Source of the DNA: Priestia megaterium NBRC 15308 = ATCC 14581 | Lineage (GTDB): Bacteria; Bacillota; Bacilli; Bacillales; Bacillaceae_H | DNA length: 64,000 nucleotides | Assembly: GCF_000832985.1 (NCBI RefSeq) | Contig: NZ_CP009920.1 | Coordinates: 3,838,501-3,902,500 of the forward strand | Direction of reading: 5' to 3' | Notes under the pieces: generated by a model | What the model was told of the DNA's origin: nothing | Database searches by the model: none | Seen by the model: only the letters and a program-made list of their open reading frames with translations | Translations under genes and position numbers: made by a program | Part shown: one piece after another, positions 32,987-39,269 of the stretch | Layout of the letters: each line of letters opens with the position of its first letter | How positions within the stretch are numbered: position 1 is the first letter of the stretch

Positions 32987-34303
32987 ATGAATCATCGTAC
33001 GTATCTTACTTTGGCGATTCCCCTGACAATCTCAACGATGACTACGCCCTTATTAGGTGCGGTTGATACTGCTGTTGTAGGGCAACTTCCAGCTCCAGCT
33101 TATATTGGAGGAGTTGCGGTAGGAACTCTTATTTTTAATACGTTATATTGGGTATTTGGCTTTTTAAGAGTTAGTACATCCGCCTTTGCCGCACAAGCAA
33201 ATGGGGCAAGTGATCCAGATCAGGGAGTACTTGCTTTATCCCGGCCATTTTTATTAGCTGTAATAGTAGGGCTGCTTTTTATTCTTTTACAATGGCCAAT
33301 TGAACATGCCGCTCTCTTAGTAATTTCTCCTGATGCTGATGTAAGTAGGTTTGCAGTAGAATATTTTAGGATTAGAATATGGGGAGCACCTTTTACACTG
33401 ATGAACTATGTAATTCTTGGTTGGTTAATGGGAATGGCTAAGATTAAAGAATCTCTATGTTTACAGATACTTACAAATGTTTTGAATATGTTTTTAGCTA
33501 TTCTTTTTGTCCATGTTTTTTCTTTTGATGTACAAGGAGTCGCTACAGCAACCTTGATTGCTGAAGTTACAGCCTTCATATTAGGAGTATTCATTATTTT
33601 GAAAGCATCTCCGTTTAAATGGAAAATGCCATCAATTCAGGCACTTATGGATACAAATTCTATGAAGAAGATGTTTAATGTTAACAAGGATTTGTTTATT
33701 CGTACTATTTGTTTACTGGTCGTTATTAATATGTTCACAGCAAAAGGTGCTTCGTTTGGCACAGAATTTCTAGCTGCAAATGCTGTATTATTTCAAATCC
33801 ACTACATAATGGCTTATTTCTTTGATGGATTTGCTAATGCTTCCAGTATTCTTGTTGGTAAAGCAGTAGGGTCAAATGATAAAGAGCTATATAAAAAAAT
33901 ACTTACTTTATCTAGGCAGTGGTCGGTAATAACAGCAGTTACTATAGCCAGTTTATATGCACTTTTTCAAGAGCAGGTTATTGGGCTATTTACAAATTTG
34001 CCTGATGTGATCGAACTTTCACTTACGTATGGAGTATGGCTTATCATCTATCCCTTTGTTGCTTGTTTTGGCCTTGTCCTTTATGGGGTTTTTACAGGAG
34101 CAACTGAAATTGCTCCCGTTCGAAATTCTATGATTTACGCGATGATTGTCTATATCATTATACAGATTACAGCAACTCCTATCTGGCATAATCATGGCCT
34201 ATGGCTGGCTTTCATCATCTATACTATGGGGCGATCAGGGTTCCTAGTTATGTACACTCCTCAATTAAATAAAAAATTGTTACAGCTAAAGGGAGAAGGC
34301 TGA
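32987..34303 (+). CDS. MATE-family efflux protein
   Basis: 438 residues, about 12 membrane segments in two six-helix halves. The MATE motifs are visible: PLLGAVDTAVVGQLPAPAYIGGVAVG (TM1-2), SAFAAQANGA, and in the second half FDGFANASSILVGKAVGSNDKELY. It resembles the DinF-type branch. Exports organic solutes by Na+ or H+ antiport. AGGAGGCC before the ATG. It follows nikABCDE on the same strand after one hairpin, so it may be co-regulated by the Fur-like box; export of a metal chelator is one possibility. Confidence 0.87.
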   Translation: MNHRTYLTLAIPLTISTMTTPLLGAVDTAVVGQLPAPAYIGGVAVGTLIFNTLYWVFGFLRVSTSAFAAQANGASDPDQGVLALSRPFLLAVIVGLLFILLQWPIEHAALLVISPDADVSRFAVEYFRIRIWGAPFTLMNYVILGWLMGMAKIKESLCLQILTNVLNMFLAILFVHVFSFDVQGVATATLIAEVTAFILGVFIILKASPFKWKMPSIQALMDTNSMKKMFNVNKDLFIRTICLLVVINMFTAKGASFGTEFLAANAVLFQIHYIMAYFFDGFANASSILVGKAVGSNDKELYKKILTLSRQWSVITAVTIASLYALFQEQVIGLFTNLPDVIELSLTYGVWLIIYPFVACFGLVLYGVFTGATEIAPVRNSMIYAMIVYIIIQITATPIWHNHGLWLAFIIYTMGRSGFLVMYTPQLNKKLLQLKGEG

Positions 34304-34903
34304 AAAATTTATAACAAAATAGCGCCAGTTCATTCATGAGGGAATCCTTCAAAAGCGGATATACTAACGGTGCTGCTACTATCCTAAATAGATAGGTTAT
34401 TAAGAAAGTAGCCAGGGAGGACGGCCTCCTTTCTTAATAAAGGTGTGTTAAATGATTAGTGGATTTTTATCTAAGTAAAGCAAGAAATAAGAAAGCCGCC
34501 AAGTGCTTTTTTAAGAAAGCTTTGGCTTTTTTATACGTTTCCAAAGTTTAATTCTCTTTTACAAACAATTGTCCTTGCTCTAAAAATATATAGATTTCTA
34601 CTAAGAAATAAAAAATTCGTTATCTGTCCCGACTGAATAAAAAAATTCCATTCATCATCTTATAATAAATTTCTTTATTGAAAACAGCAATACGAATCTA
34701 ACGGATTCGTATTTTCCAGTGACATTCAAAATACTTCCCAAGCAATAGAAAGAAGAGGTTTTGAACGTTTATAATTAGGTTAAACATAAGGTAACAAATT
34801 ATTTTTTATTTATTCTGTATATTTAAATTATTCGTTCGTAGTGGTACAATAAAATGATGGAAAGAAGATATGATGCTTCTTTCTTAATAAAGGATGAAGA
34901 AAT
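34304..34903. other. 600-base intergenic region with structured RNA candidate
   Basis: No coding frame with a binding site (34854-35066 is a shadow of the next gene). It contains the hairpins listed at 34379-34535 and an extended -10 promoter TGGTACAAT (34842-34850) for the MpsC-like gene. Confidence 0.5.
34379..34535 (+). ncRNA. Candidate structured RNA ending in a terminator
   Basis: Three stems in a row: CTATC / GATAG (34379-34395), a long hairpin with perfect 12-bp arms TTATTAAGAAAG and CTTTCTTAATAA (34397-34440) capped by GGAGG / CCTCC around ACGG, and a terminator with a T run at 34492-34532. The 34397-34408 arm is also fully complementary to the leader of the next gene (34879-34890). 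No promoter is clear, so expression is unproven. Confidence 0.35.
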
Positions 34904-35599
34904 ATGGATATTAAGACTCAGCAAACAAAGCTGGCGAATAATGTGGGCAAATTGTTACGAGATAACTTTGGAAAAGGCCCTGAGGCTGTTCATGTTACGA
35001 TATATGAACCTTATGTTGTTATTTATGTCAGCGGCTTCGTATCACCTATGGAGCAAGTACTGTTAAACCAAAATGAAGAACTTCAGGTTATGACTACAAG
35101 AGAGCTGTTGGTAAAGACTCTTGAACCTCAAATCACTGGGCAAATTAAAGGGATTACAGACCTCGACATACAGCACTTATATTATGATTGGAACTTAGAT
35201 CACCACTCCGGAATTTTTGTGGGAGTGTGTCTGGACGATTTGAAAGCCGATTTGACTGAGGGGGACCCTTACCCAGGAAAACAAGCAATTCATGATCGAA
35301 TTATAAAGATGAGTGAGATTGCCCAAAAAGGACCTGAAAAAATTTCTTCATATAAATTAAGCGATCGTACATTGGTCATCGTACGCGAGGGAATACTGGT
35401 GGCTATTGAAAAGCAGCTAATTTCGTTAGGTTTTGATGACACCTTACGCATCTCTAAACGTCCTTTGGAAAAAGGAATCTTACGACAAAACGATGACTAT
35501 GATGAAATATTAAATGCGGACATTCTTGATATTTTTGTAGATTGGGATTTTGAAAAGGATAATAGTATTATTACACTTATCTTAAAACCAAAAAATTAA
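34904..35599 (+). CDS. MpsC/DUF2294-domain protein, copy 1
   Basis: 231 residues, soluble. Two related halves: residues about 8-105 (KLLRDNFGKGPEAVHVTIYEPYVVIYVSGF ... LYYDWNLDHHSGIFVGV) and about 145-230 (SSYKLSDRTLVIVREGILVAIEKQL ... DIFVDWDFEKDNSIITLIL). The GKGPE motif and the (Y/V)DW(N/D) block are typical of DUF2294, named MpsC after a component linked to the S. aureus MpsABC membrane-potential/bicarbonate system. No mpsA or mpsB is nearby. Extended -10 TGGTACAAT at 34842-34850; AAAGGATGAAG precedes the ATG. The paralogue lies at 36132. Confidence 0.8.
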   Translation: MDIKTQQTKLANNVGKLLRDNFGKGPEAVHVTIYEPYVVIYVSGFVSPMEQVLLNQNEELQVMTTRELLVKTLEPQITGQIKGITDLDIQHLYYDWNLDHHSGIFVGVCLDDLKADLTEGDPYPGKQAIHDRIIKMSEIAQKGPEKISSYKLSDRTLVIVREGILVAIEKQLISLGFDDTLRISKRPLEKGILRQNDDYDEILNADILDIFVDWDFEKDNSIITLILKPKN

Positions 35600-35632
35600 T
35601 GAGGCAGTAATGAATTGGACACACTGTGCCAA

Positions 35633-35685
35633 ACATAAGCCGAGGAAGCAAAGGACATACCTTTTCTTTTTCGGCTTATTTTTGT
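35633..35685 (+). terminator. Intrinsic terminator after MpsC copy 1
   Basis: ATAAGCCGA / TCGGCTTAT with inner AAGG / CCTT pairing and TTTTTG after it. Confidence 0.75.
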
Positions 35686-35776
35686 TGTCTAAAAAGAGTA
35701 AGTCCTTTTGTAACGGAATAATCCCCTAAAACAGCACCTGAAAATAGGATGTGCCAACAGAAAGGATTTGGTCGGG

Positions 35777-35992
35777 ATGGCTGATAATCATGAGATTGTA
35801 TTGTTTATGAAAGAGCTTCATCGATTGTTGCAGGATTACCAAAAGTATGACAATGAATTACACAAAGAAGAAATTAGCAAGGATATACTACTTTTAAGTA
35901 CCATTATCTATGGAAGTAAAATTGGAATTTTAAATAAAAGAAGAATCTTTAAACACAGGAAATACAAAGCTAAACAGAAACCAATCTATTAA
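35777..35992 (+). CDS. Small protein between the two MpsC-like genes
   Basis: 71 residues from the ATG at 35777, ten bases after AAAGGA; the in-frame TTG at 35768 is too close to it. The N-terminal half is an amphipathic helix (HEIVLFMKELHRLLQDYQKYDNELHKEE); the C-terminus is strongly basic (NKRRIFKHRKYKAKQKP). No family recognised. Its place between two MpsC paralogues suggests a partner or nucleic-acid-binding role, but that is only context. Confidence 0.55.
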   Translation: MADNHEIVLFMKELHRLLQDYQKYDNELHKEEISKDILLLSTIIYGSKIGILNKRRIFKHRKYKAKQKPIY

Positions 35993-36131
35993 AGTTATAC
36001 TAGTATGCCTCGTTTACACTTTATAAAAAGTGAATTCTTATTGCCGAAAATGATCTTATGAGGAAGAAGGATTTTTCATAAAACATCACGAATAGTATAC
36101 CTTATGAAACTAGAAACTAGGTGCACCATCT

Positions 36132-36821
36132 ATGGATAAAACGAAACTGGAAAAAGAATTAAGTAGCTATATGGGAAGGTTACTTCGTGAAAACTTTGGA
36201 AGAGGTCCTGGAGGTGTATTCACCGTCATTTCTCCTCCTTTTATAACCGTTTATTTTAAAGCCTTTTTATTACCTTTAGAAAAGACTTTGTTAGACAAGG
36301 GACAAGTTATCTATGTTCAAAAAACACGTGATTTGTTAATGGAGACTCTAATTGAAGAGATAAAAGGATATATACAATTAAATATACATTTAGATATTGA
36401 AGAATTTTATTATGATTGGAATTTAGAGCTGCAGTCTGGGATGTTTATCATGATCCATTCGGATAAAGAAAACATAGCTAATCATTCCTATAAAAATCAG
36501 AAATTGCTGCATAAAGAAGTTGAGGAAGTAACTCAAAAAGCAGAAAAGTTCCCTCACAATGTTTCTTCTTATCTATTAGATCAGAGAACACTTCTTATAA
36601 TCAGGGAAGGTATTATGGTAACTATAGAGAAAGAATTAGTTCAATTAGGATTTGAAGAAAACCTTACTTTGGCTAAAAGAAATCTCGAAAAAAAGCTACT
36701 TCATGAACATAGTCAATCGTTAGAAGTAATTTTAGATTCAAAGATAACAGATATACTAGTAGCATGGGACTTTCATAAAGATAAAAGTACAATTCTTCTG
36801 ATTTTAAACCCAACTTCATAA
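36132..36821 (+). CDS. MpsC/DUF2294-domain protein, copy 2
   Basis: 229 residues, full-length paralogue of the gene at 34904 with the same two-half structure: RLLRENFGRGPGGVFTVISPPFITVYFKAF, then EEFYYDWNLELQSGMFIMI, and in the second half SSYLLDQRTLLIIREGIMVTIEKELVQLGFEENL and DILVAWDFHKDKSTILLIL. The copies have diverged throughout, so the duplication is not recent. Binding site AGGTG. Followed by a very strong hairpin and then the RsbT-like kinase. Confidence 0.8.
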   Translation: MDKTKLEKELSSYMGRLLRENFGRGPGGVFTVISPPFITVYFKAFLLPLEKTLLDKGQVIYVQKTRDLLMETLIEEIKGYIQLNIHLDIEEFYYDWNLELQSGMFIMIHSDKENIANHSYKNQKLLHKEVEEVTQKAEKFPHNVSSYLLDQRTLLIIREGIMVTIEKELVQLGFEENLTLAKRNLEKKLLHEHSQSLEVILDSKITDILVAWDFHKDKSTILLILNPTS

Positions 36822-36855
36822 CGGCATTGATAAGCTAGGCACTGAACTAGATGTA

Positions 36856-36906
36856 GGCCAAAAAGAAAGGTTATGTAACCTTTCTTTTTGGCCTATTGTT
36901 TTTTTA
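36856..36906 (+). terminator. Strong hairpin between MpsC copy 2 and the RsbT-like gene
   Basis: 18-bp perfect stem (GGCCAAAAAGAAAGGTTA and complement) with a two-base centre, then a run of seven T's. It should end most transcription only 33 bases before the next start codon. Confidence 0.9.
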
Positions 36907-36938
36907 CTACTATTAAAATAAAGAAAGTGGTGATAATT

Positions 36939-37370
36939 ATGCTATTTCAATCGGATGAAAGAAAGGAACTTTTAACTGTTGAGATACACACGGAAGTGGA
37001 TATAGTAGAAGCGCGTCAGAAAGGGCGAATGTTTTCTAACTGCTTAGGCTTCAGCGCACTTGATCAGGCCCGAATTATTACCACTATTTCAGAATTATCC
37101 AGAAATATATATAAATATGCCACTAACGGAAAAATTACAATGGAAATAATAGAGAAAAAACCTGAAATAGGACTCAAAATAATAGCTATAGATAAAGGAC
37201 CAGGCATTAAAAATATTCAAAAAGCGCTAGAAAGTGGCTATACAACGTCAGGAGGGTTAGGCGTTGGTTTATCAGGGGTGAAAAAATTAATGGACGAATT
37301 CACCATATCATCTCAAGAAGACCATGGCGTTAACATCCAGGTTATAAAATGGAAAAAAAGAAATAAGTAA
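36939..37370 (+). CDS. RsbT-like serine kinase / anti-sigma regulatory factor
   Basis: 143 residues from the ATG at 36939 (AGAAAGTGGTG upstream). GHKL ATPase of the RsbT/SpoIIAB class: the N-box in ISELSRNIYKYATNGKITMEI, the G1 box IAIDKGPGI, the G2 box TSGGLGVGLSGVKKLMDEFTI. It matches B. subtilis RsbT closely in order and spacing (VDIVEARQKGR ... DQARI.T.ISEL.RNIY.YA). RsbT is the switch kinase of the SigB stressosome. Here no rsbR/rsbS/rsbU genes are adjacent; instead two MpsC-like genes precede it. A third or alternative partner-switch system is possible. Confidence 0.9.
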   Translation: MLFQSDERKELLTVEIHTEVDIVEARQKGRMFSNCLGFSALDQARIITTISELSRNIYKYATNGKITMEIIEKKPEIGLKIIAIDKGPGIKNIQKALESGYTTSGGLGVGLSGVKKLMDEFTISSQEDHGVNIQVIKWKKRNK

Positions 37371-37828
37371 AAGGAACACAAGTTAAACTGTAAACATTTA
37401 TCTACAACAGTAGGTAAAGATTTGTATAGATTTATCAGTAGCTAGACTGAAAAATCTATTTTTCATTAAGCACTATTAAGGTCAAAAAATTTTAAAAAGT
37501 TTAAGAAAGAACGGACTTCCTCTTTACAAAAGACTCCTTTATTGAATAGGAGATAGCTTCTAAAAACATCATCCCCTGATGATCCTGCTCTAGGATAAGG
37601 TTAAGATAAGATATTTCACATGCGTGAGTTGGTACCTTCAGCATGTGTTTCTCCTCTATTAACTCTTAGCAGTAGGACAAAAATGTTTCTTCGTAGTAGT
37701 CACAAGAGGCTTAGAAACATGAAAAAAAGGTGTAGAAAAGTATGAGCAATTGTATTTAATCGTTAAAATAATTGATCATAATCAAGCCTCAAAAACCATA
37801 GATTCTTGGAAATTATTAATAATGATAA
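37371..37828. other. Intergenic region
   Basis: AT-rich, no supported frame or clear terminator. The opposite frame at 37782-37973 lies over the MocR promoter and gene start and is rejected. Confidence 0.4.
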
Positions 37829-37857
37829 TTGTGATATAAACAGTGCAAGTATATAAT
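37829..37857 (+). promoter_or_regulatory. Promoter of the MocR-type gene
   Basis: TTGTGA (37829-37834), 17 bases, TATAAT (37852-37857). The start of transcription would fall about 17 bases before the ATG, leaving only the binding site as leader. Confidence 0.65.
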
Positions 37858-37880
37858 TGTGTGAAAAAAGGATGGATACT

Positions 37881-39269
37881 ATGCCGATTAATTCGTTTGA
37901 AAACTATCCGATGAGCTGGAAACCATCTGTTGATAAAACAAGAAAGCCTATTTACCAAGCCATTGCAGGACAATTGGAACAGGATATTATCAAGGGAGTT
38001 TTATTACCTGGAACAAAACTTCCTCCACAGAGAGAGCTAGCCGATTATTTAGATTTAAATTTGAGTACGATTTCAAAAGCATTTAAAGTGTGCGAGCTAA
38101 AGGGTTTATTAAGTGCTACTGTTGGAAGCGGTACATTCGTATCGTATGATGCGTTATCCAATGCGTATTTACTCGAAGATATAAAGCCTAGCCACTTAAT
38201 TGAAATGGGCGCGACATTGCCAGACAATGATTCATACGAGCCACTTCTCCTTCAACTAAAAGATATGCTACAAGAGACTGATTACGAAAAGTGGTTTAGT
38301 TATGGGAGGCCAGGTGAAAGTCTTTGGCAAAAAGATGCAGCTGTAAAGCTGATGAGAAGAGGCGGATTCAAAACAACAGTTGATCACATTTTATTTGCAA
38401 ATGGAGGACAAAATGCAATTGCTGCAATACTAGCGAGTCTTTGTCAGCCTGGAGATCGCATCGGGGTTGATCATCACACTTATCCAGGTTTAAAAACGGT
38501 TGCAGCTATGCTTAGTGTGCAATTAGTACCGATAAAATCAAAGAATTATGAAATGAGTCCAACTGCTTTTGAATATGCATGTAAAAATGACAATATTAAA
38601 GGCATTTACTTGATACCCGACTATCATAATCCAACTGCTTGCTGTATGTCCGTTAAAAACCGAGAAAGGCTTGCTGTGATTGCAAAAAAATATAACCAAT
38701 TTATTATTGAAGATGCAACGTATCATCTCCATCATGAGCGACCAATGCCAGCAGTGGCATCATATGCACCAGAACAAGTCATCTATATTGCGAGTTTATC
38801 AAAATCAATAGCACCAGGGTTACGACTAGCATATGTAGCAGCACCTAGTCGATTTAAAGAGCCTATTTCAAAGGCACTTTATAATTTAAATATATCAGTT
38901 TCACCATTATTAGCAGAGCTAACAGCACGTATTATTGTGTCAAATCAATTTGAACCCTTAGTAGAGAATCATCGTGAACAAGCTATTCTCAGAAATCGAA
39001 TTGCAAATCAATATTTAGAAAATTACACGTGTTTAGGTATGGAAACTGGTATATTTCGTTGGTTACTATTACCTGAAAAGATTACAGGTGCAGAATTTGA
39101 AACATTAGCTGCGCAGCAGGGCGTACAAGTGTATGCAGCAGAACGCTTTGTAGTTGGAAACAGTTGTCCAGACAGAGCTGTAAGAATCGCTATCTGTGCA
39201 CCAAAAACGATTGGAGAGCTTGAGCAAGGATTGATTATCCTTAAACGTTTACTTAACGACTATTTATAA
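37881..39269 (+). CDS. MocR-type GntR regulator with aminotransferase-like domain
   Basis: 462 residues from the ATG at 37881, preceded by AAAAAGGA. N-terminal GntR winged helix (IYQAIAGQLEQDIIKGVLLPGTKLPPQRELADYL, about 23-56) and a fold-type I aminotransferase domain (about 110-460) with the PLP Lys in SLSKSIAPGLRLAY and the conserved Asp in FIIEDATYH (DxTYH where many family members have DxxY). Such regulators sense PLP-bound amines or amino acids. It ends in a terminator and is followed on the same strand by an MFS transporter, its likely target. Confidence 0.9.
   Translation: MPINSFENYPMSWKPSVDKTRKPIYQAIAGQLEQDIIKGVLLPGTKLPPQRELADYLDLNLSTISKAFKVCELKGLLSATVGSGTFVSYDALSNAYLLEDIKPSHLIEMGATLPDNDSYEPLLLQLKDMLQETDYEKWFSYGRPGESLWQKDAAVKLMRRGGFKTTVDHILFANGGQNAIAAILASLCQPGDRIGVDHHTYPGLKTVAAMLSVQLVPIKSKNYEMSPTAFEYACKNDNIKGIYLIPDYHNPTACCMSVKNRERLAVIAKKYNQFIIEDATYHLHHERPMPAVASYAPEQVIYIASLSKSIAPGLRLAYVAAPSRFKEPISKALYNLNISVSPLLAELTARIIVSNQFEPLVENHREQAILRNRIANQYLENYTCLGMETGIFRWLLLPEKITGAEFETLAAQQGVQVYAAERFVVGNSCPDRAVRIAICAPKTIGELEQGLIILKRLLNDYL

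Follow-up and report, generated by a model that had tools for sequence, protein, structure and literature searches.

A conserved two-state RNA element before an RsbT-like kinase gene and a small gene: a candidate switch at the double MpsC locus of Priestia megaterium

Riboswitches that act by control of termination have an aptamer-like domain, and the 3′ strand of their helix P1 is common to an arm of the terminator. In the protein-dependent LicT/BglG-RAT and ANTAR systems, an RNA hairpin overlaps the terminator and the protein has repeated domains. An RNA element described here is found twice in a 64,000-nucleotide stretch of the chromosome of Priestia megaterium NBRC 15308 = ATCC 14581 (contig NZ_CP009920.1, positions 3,838,501 to 3,902,500, forward strand; this whole stretch is termed the window). 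Judged by sequence only, the element is like a termination-control riboswitch in that it has a conserved structured sensor domain and a mutually exclusive expression platform, but it has no known ligand, no Rfam family over the gathering score in the stretches searched, and it occurs together with genes for two-domain MpsC proteins, termed MpsC2, or with remnants of them. It differs from LicT/BglG-RAT and ANTAR in RNA sequence, and Pfam reveals neither a CAT/PRD nor an ANTAR domain in the six proteins scanned from the locus.

The proteins of the locus also have described relatives. Its MpsC proteins have the same Pfam domain as MpsC/DUF2294 (PF10057), but the locus differs in having two such domains per chain, the RNA element and, in part of the cases, a kinase. 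In the MpsABC bicarbonate/membrane-potential system, mpsA and mpsB are found beside mpsC, and neither adjoins the MpsC genes of the window. Staphylococcal mpsC is reported to be dispensable. The kinase shares with stressosome RsbT the GHKL fold family, 53% identity and the ATP-site motifs. It differs in its position in the tree, in the loss of W13 and (in clade B) of D92, in having no RsbS, RsbR or RsbU neighbours and in having the RNA element in front.

The locus is proposed to be a four-gene signalling module consisting of MpsC-A, a small protein, MpsC-B and the kinase, in which the second and the fourth genes would each be gated by an RNA switch not represented in Rfam, as far as searched. 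A probability of about 0.75 is assigned to this reading. The observed basis is the linkage of the genes, covariation in the RNA, a strand common to two helices and the genomic contexts of the element. The candidate switch and the genes are found together again in many Bacillus relatives, and this points to a new regulatory circuit. Features of the module, in window coordinates, are as follows.

34904 to 35599, plus strand: MpsC-A, 231 amino acids, two-domain MpsC/DUF2294 (two PF10057 stretches; MpsC tree; small-gene survey)
35597 to 35645, plus strand: P1/P2 part of element A (RNA model R1, 52.1 bits, E 4e-11, filters off; fold)
35603 to 35605 pairing with 35639 to 35641, plus strand: P1 of element A (fold)
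35635 to 35687, plus strand: terminator of element A, stem 35635 to 35679 followed by a U-rich tail; the 5′ arm includes the 3′ strand of P1
35777 to 35992, plus strand: small conserved protein, about 71 amino acids from its ATG (profile relatives in 22 of 180 loci)
36132 to 36821, plus strand: MpsC-B, 229 amino acids, two-domain MpsC/DUF2294, directly 5′ of the kinase (two PF10057 stretches)
36817 to 36863, plus strand: P1/P2 part of element B (RNA model R1, 42.1 bits, E 1.5e-8, filters off)
36823 to 36825 with 36857 to 36859, and 36835 to 36838 with 36847 to 36850, plus strand: P1 and P2 of element B (the centroid fold is P1+P2)
36853 to 36906, plus strand: terminator of element B, a 20-pair stem at 36853 to 36896 and then a U run; mutually exclusive with P1
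36939 to 37370, plus strand: RsbT-like GHKL kinase, a paralogue of canonical RsbT (Pfam, tree, residue table)

An even draw from the order gave 397 genomes, and MpsC2 proteins, called at E ≤ 1e-12, are present in 142 of them. Comparison of the gap between MpsC-B and the kinase across genera reveals a hairpin with conserved sequence, and the 120 bases 3′ of 217 MpsC2 genes (196 distinct), among those listed, contain a larger conserved element. The 69 copies (68 distinct) of an alignment termed A4 were selected for a GACATAAGCC-like core with a T run 3′ of it, the 5′ strands playing no part in the choice. Of the 217 downstream stretches, 129 have core and T run; 110 of these are distinct, 91 have a terminator end and 62 are less than 86% alike, and to these were added five Rossellomorea-type copies and the two window copies. 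The alignment supports P1 (GGY with RCC) and a P2 of four pairs: 99.8% of 473 cells are paired, against at most 44.4% in controls with slid partners, and covariation is 0.472 as compared with 0.282 in shuffles, none of 500 being as high. The internal loops are compact and conserved (RGNAAUGA / ACAUAA). Columns 24 and 38 display a purine swap, A.G in 43 and G.A in 25 of the 68 distinct rows; of 144 distinct copies that were aligned to the model, 143 have one or the other.

Part of the 5′ arm of the terminator is made up of the RCC strand of P1, and P1 and the base of the terminator are therefore mutually exclusive. Removal of the three weakest (L070, L102, L236) from 196 matches to R1 leaves 193, and the merging of 26 duplicates leaves 167 distinct copies. 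P1 is possible in 166 of them, the terminator draws on the P1 strand in 165, and 164 allow both pairings. Three-way changes that keep both pairings are found (GGC/GCC/GGC, GGU/ACC/GGU and GAU/GUC/GAC). In the 99 copies outside model building, a terminator stem of 10 or more is present in 97; random [AG]CC sites from these loci have one in 79 of 6520 cases. The element cannot be taken for part of the MpsC coding region, since its overlap with the stop codon varies in offset and copies are also found apart from mpsC. Rfam 15 has no family above the gathering threshold in window positions 34250 to 37900 or in seven element loci, the best sub-threshold match being the plant microRNA model MIR169_2 on the terminator hairpin of locus L269 (33.8 of 50 bits, E 8.4e-6). 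A term search of the text of RNA-motif discovery papers gave no mention of rsbT or megaterium. As far as searched, this is apparently a new class of terminator/antiterminator RNA.

The two window copies are the only ones in the genome, one before the kinase and the other before the small gene. Element A overlaps the stop codon of MpsC-A and element B that of MpsC-B. Element A (35597 to about 35687), after the first MpsC gene, is absent from a preliminary description of the locus made from the sequence; the fold of 35597 to 35692 has a z-score of -4.89. When copy B is folded alone, the centroid is P1+P2, and with the 3′ part added the terminator wins. The same description reported a strong terminator at 36856 to 36906, and the hairpin is indeed there; it forms one half of a conserved two-state RNA element. 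It need not isolate the kinase, which the same description had named as a possible objection to a joint module; the sequence is that of a switchable terminator which is conserved with the kinase. Plain, strong, conserved intrinsic terminators after mpsC, with no switching and with the kinase expressed from its own promoter, would explain the strength of copy B (-33.8 kcal/mol) and the many elements situated directly after an mpsC stop codon, but terminators do not need a conserved and covarying P1/P2 upstream. In addition, elements are also found before the kinase, the small gene and other genes with no mpsC upstream, and in the window the kinase start follows the U run by only about 30 nucleotides. 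This explanation is considered very improbable.

The following sequence of events is proposed from these properties. In the transcript, P1 (GGY:RCC) would close the 4-pair hairpin P2, with the RCC strand doubling as part of the 5′ arm of the intrinsic terminator. With no signal, the more stable terminator would form and transcription would end before the kinase (or small) gene. Stabilization of P1/P2 would open the terminator base and allow RNA polymerase to read through, and the element would then be an ON switch. That it switches, in which direction and in response to which effector is what we infer. The likeliest effector is MpsC2, which would act on elements of its own class and be tuned by the kinase and the small protein; the main alternative would be a small molecule.

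The genomic contexts show to which gene the element belongs. Within 180 loci it is upstream of 38 of 40 RsbT-like genes, the two others being L050, which is not MpsC-linked, and L114. In a Fictibacillus genome (G310) it precedes the kinase though MpsC-B is absent from the locus, and in genome G076 it precedes the small gene though MpsC-A is absent. Because copies precede the kinase or the small gene where the neighbouring mpsC is gone, the element belongs to the downstream gene as its leader. Some copies stand in front of MpsC2 itself or of unrelated genes. When the downstream gene was crudely called for the 193 matches, duplicates included, it was the kinase in 36, the small gene in 21, MpsC2 in 8, RsbR in 1 and other genes in 99. 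Recurrent among the others are a protein of about 60 amino acids that starts with MKYLIDH, a membrane-like protein of about 160 amino acids, and MEDS, universal stress (Usp) and PhyH proteins.

Several loci display contexts of their own. In L269 and L283 to L287 (family f21), the element is before the membrane-like protein of about 160 amino acids, which has a FIILPxVSxxxE-type motif, and no mpsC was seen adjoining. Three genomes (G147, G264 and G381; loci L293, L294 and L298 to L301) have several elements each, which precede genes for universal stress proteins, PhyH-type proteins and glycosyltransferase-like proteins; the regulon may be enlarged there. In L043 (G020:C14), an MpsC2 gene broken by a stop codon is followed by a 565-amino acid protein similar to RsbU (E 2e-8), and the RNA element is in front of an upstream gene of 144 amino acids. 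A variant element (GGTAAATG ... ACC/GCC and a terminator) was seen, by pattern and by eye, after divergent MpsC2 genes that have no R1 match (L045, L046, L115, L117 and L119).

The element is found in 98 of the 397 genomes of the order, and 96 of these 98 have MpsC2, versus 142 of 397 overall, the counts being uncorrected for kinship. The two element genomes with no intact MpsC2 have broken MpsC2 remnants beside the element. In a class-wide draw, 20 of 398 genomes match; 12 of these are further Bacilli outside the order, and five loci opened from these 12 all have MpsC2. In control loci from 36 sources the element was not found, whether at 30 canonical or second RsbT loci, in the sigB operon or at four loci of single-domain MpsC; the best match had E 0.067. 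The subtype after MpsC-A has A.G in 16 of 16 distinct copies, and that after MpsC-B-type genes has G.A in 42 of 44. MpsC2 is favoured as effector because the element co-occurs with MpsC2 or its remnants and because the subtypes follow the MpsC-A and MpsC-B types. Its direct action on the candidate switch, argued here from comparison of genomes, is put at rather less than even odds. A small ligand is a somewhat weaker candidate. P1/P2 would then be the aptamer of a riboswitch for a metabolite or ion, and MpsC2, the kinase and the small proteins would be the regulon, with no contact between MpsC2 and the RNA. This rival, likewise given less than even odds, differs in the effector only and retains the switch. 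It accords with the compact conserved internal loops, the purine swap at columns 24 and 38, the strand common to P1 and the terminator, and the varied downstream genes, which include those of Usp, PhyH and MEDS proteins; against it stand the finding of the element, in the order-wide draw, only with MpsC2 or MpsC2 remnants, and the presence within a single genome of two subtypes that follow different MpsC2 paralogues.

The preliminary description had also proposed that MpsC genes are linked to an RsbT-class kinase. A survey of gene neighbourhoods bears this out, and the linkage extends well beyond the one strain. Ninety-nine MpsC2 loci were read, which are not a random sample since they were picked to span many genera; L050, fetched for its kinase, was left out of the linkage count. 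An RsbT-like kinase is 3′ of MpsC2 on the same strand in 21 of the 99, in nine genera and nine families as labelled by the tool, and it is the next gene in all but L051, where the small gene is between. A second survey started from 284 loci of named genomes with a resemblance to kinase-linked MpsC2 and kept the best 80; some of its genomes are also in the first survey. It revealed the kinase downstream on the same strand and within 300 bases in 18 of 80. A relative of the same genus (G006) also carries the module. Fictibacillus fluitans and F. enclensis have MpsC-A, small gene, MpsC-B and kinase in the order of the window, and loci of Peribacillus, Metabacillus, Domibacillus and Cytobacillus have MpsC-A and the small gene divergent from MpsC-B and the kinase. 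MpsC-A and MpsC-B belong to separate clades of the MpsC tree. In the MpsC-A clade the small gene is usually next downstream, and the MpsC2 genes linked to a kinase are spread over more than one clade (6 changes).

The kinase matches HATPase_c in Pfam (E 5.8e-10). It is one of two RsbT-like genes in the genome; the other, with which it shares the 53% identity, is elsewhere on the chromosome in an apparently complete rsbRSTUVW-sigB-rsbX operon (gene names read by eye from the sequences). As had been pointed out, no RsbR, RsbS or RsbU adjoins the window kinase. A tree of 51 rows, from which the partial L078 kinase was left out, places 24 canonical RsbTs apart from 21 MpsC-linked kinases and five other paralogues (support 83/88). 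A single clade of linked kinases withstands the test (p-AU 0.168), and their single origin is neither shown nor rejected. All 21 linked kinases retain E45, N49, D78, G80, G82, G101 and G103, the residues that we take to be the N, G1 and G2 motifs of a GHKL ATPase. W13, present in 24 of 24 canonical RsbTs, is lost in all 21. Position 92 is Ser in the window kinase and is not Asp in any of ten clade-B rows; D92 is kept in the other 11 of the 21 and in 24 of 24 canonical RsbTs. In Bacillus subtilis, Asp92 of RsbT touches Arg91 of RsbU, as a charge swap has demonstrated (PMC12143880). The kinase probably acts outside the canonical sigma-B cascade, since it retains the ATP site but not the residue by which B. 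subtilis RsbT touches RsbU.

A dedicated second RsbU was considered and discarded: in 41 genomes, some of which have the module and some not, there is a single RsbU_N protein per genome, and therefore no second RsbU was found for the kinase. A second RsbS in Priestia was likewise discarded, as each of ten Priestia genomes has one high-scoring RsbS-type match, 96-99% identical to its own canonical RsbS; the next matches, among those listed, are RsbR-like. Other RsbT paralogues (L156, L157, L159 and L160, in G263, G291, G250 and G127) are not MpsC-linked. G263 and G250 have second rsbS-rsbT pairs, in which the second RsbS is 72% and 77% identical to Priestia RsbS and D92 is kept.

The kinase and MpsC2 might instead form a protein partner switch, in which MpsC2 is a kinase substrate or antagonist like RsbS or RsbR and the RNA merely sets expression levels. 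The conserved adjacency of MpsC2 and kinase, the intact ATP site with other surface residues altered, and Ser146 and Thr153, which are invariant in 13 kinase-linked MpsC2 rows, speak for such a switch. However, 78 of 99 MpsC2 loci are without a kinase, and MpsC-B is not an obvious RsbS analogue, because its AlphaFold2 model (mean predicted local distance difference test score 96) gave no Foldseek match in the PDB at E ≤ 0.001 and no STAS description among the best 50 of 516 weaker matches. MpsC2 as a STAS look-alike was rejected on the latter result, and for STAS in the MpsC proteins Pfam gives PF10057 only. A protein partner switch is thought unlikely. Sequence searches against solved structures gave no match for the kinase (E up to 0.01) or MpsC-A (E up to 1), and no literature on an MpsC family protein was found among open-licence papers.

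A number of points weigh against a switch of the type proposed, or against MpsC2 as its effector. The fold energy of the P1/P2 part is ordinary in both window copies, with z-scores of -0.73 (copy B) and -1.29. The terminator is far more stable than P1/P2, and the effector must therefore be strong or act during transcription. Two of five covariation measures are reached by shuffles (both-side changes in 46 of 500, pair types in 87 of 500), the A4 rows were pre-selected on the core and the T run, and matches to R1 lean to the R1 structure. For 28 of the 193 matches, no gene was found within 420 nucleotides downstream. Forty-six of the 142 MpsC2 genomes have no R1 match, a few of them with a variant element by eye. 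Other MpsC2 clades are mixed in subtype, one with 42 A.G and 10 G.A and another with 8 G.A and 2 A.G. The median isoelectric point of MpsC2 is 5.5 (range 4.9-8.8), which is unusual for RNA binders. Lastly, the single RsbU_N protein per genome and the single RsbS-type match in Priestia leave the kinase with no evident output.

The gene order and coordinates of the four-gene stretch were given correctly in the preliminary description, as was the two-part build of both full-length MpsC/DUF2294 paralogues: each gives two PF10057 stretches (E 8.7e-31 for 34904-35599 and 4.6e-25 for 36132-36821), and the two are 41% identical over their full length. The whole genome has eight PF10057 matches in six proteins, two double, three single-domain and one divergent. 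The small protein between them most likely starts at ATG 35777. It had been described as basic; a small protein is present, and in the alignment the basic tail is mostly limited to Priestia. No Pfam family is above cut-off for it, with weak sub-threshold matches only. The kinase most likely starts at ATG 36939, the alternative TTG 36888 falling within the terminator hairpin. According to Pfam, the outer neighbours are a MATE transporter upstream of MpsC-A and a MocR-type regulator after the kinase, in keeping with the reported lack of mpsA and mpsB; the reading of the locus in terms of membrane potential is not supported.

A hairpin (TTATTAAGAAAG / CTTTCTTAATAA) is present 5′ of MpsC-A, at window positions 34379 to 34460. 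Its fold energy is ordinary (z -1.26), and it does not match the new RNA model. Two single-domain MpsC genes of the same genome, L013 (C6:4669233) and L014 (C6:1862533), are beside what by eye is a formate transporter gene and beside formate dehydrogenase/molybdopterin genes, which suggests a link of single-domain DUF2294 to formate.

Perhaps MpsC2 proteins act as antiterminators that bind RNA, a new family in which each member recognizes its own element subtype and is switched by an RsbT-type kinase. The cascade would then end on nascent RNA and not on a sigma factor, and would control a small-protein stress regulon across Bacilli; this is a speculative extension and is thought improbable as a whole. 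Through the analysis, an oddity of gene neighbourhood becomes a circuit that can be tested. It provides a structured RNA class outside Rfam 15, as far as searched, with an on/off architecture, a possible role for the two-domain DUF2294 proteins, an RsbT-class kinase seemingly outside sigma-B, and a set of small genes that may be under one signal. The element marks its own regulon, and therefore both effector and output can be searched for directly.

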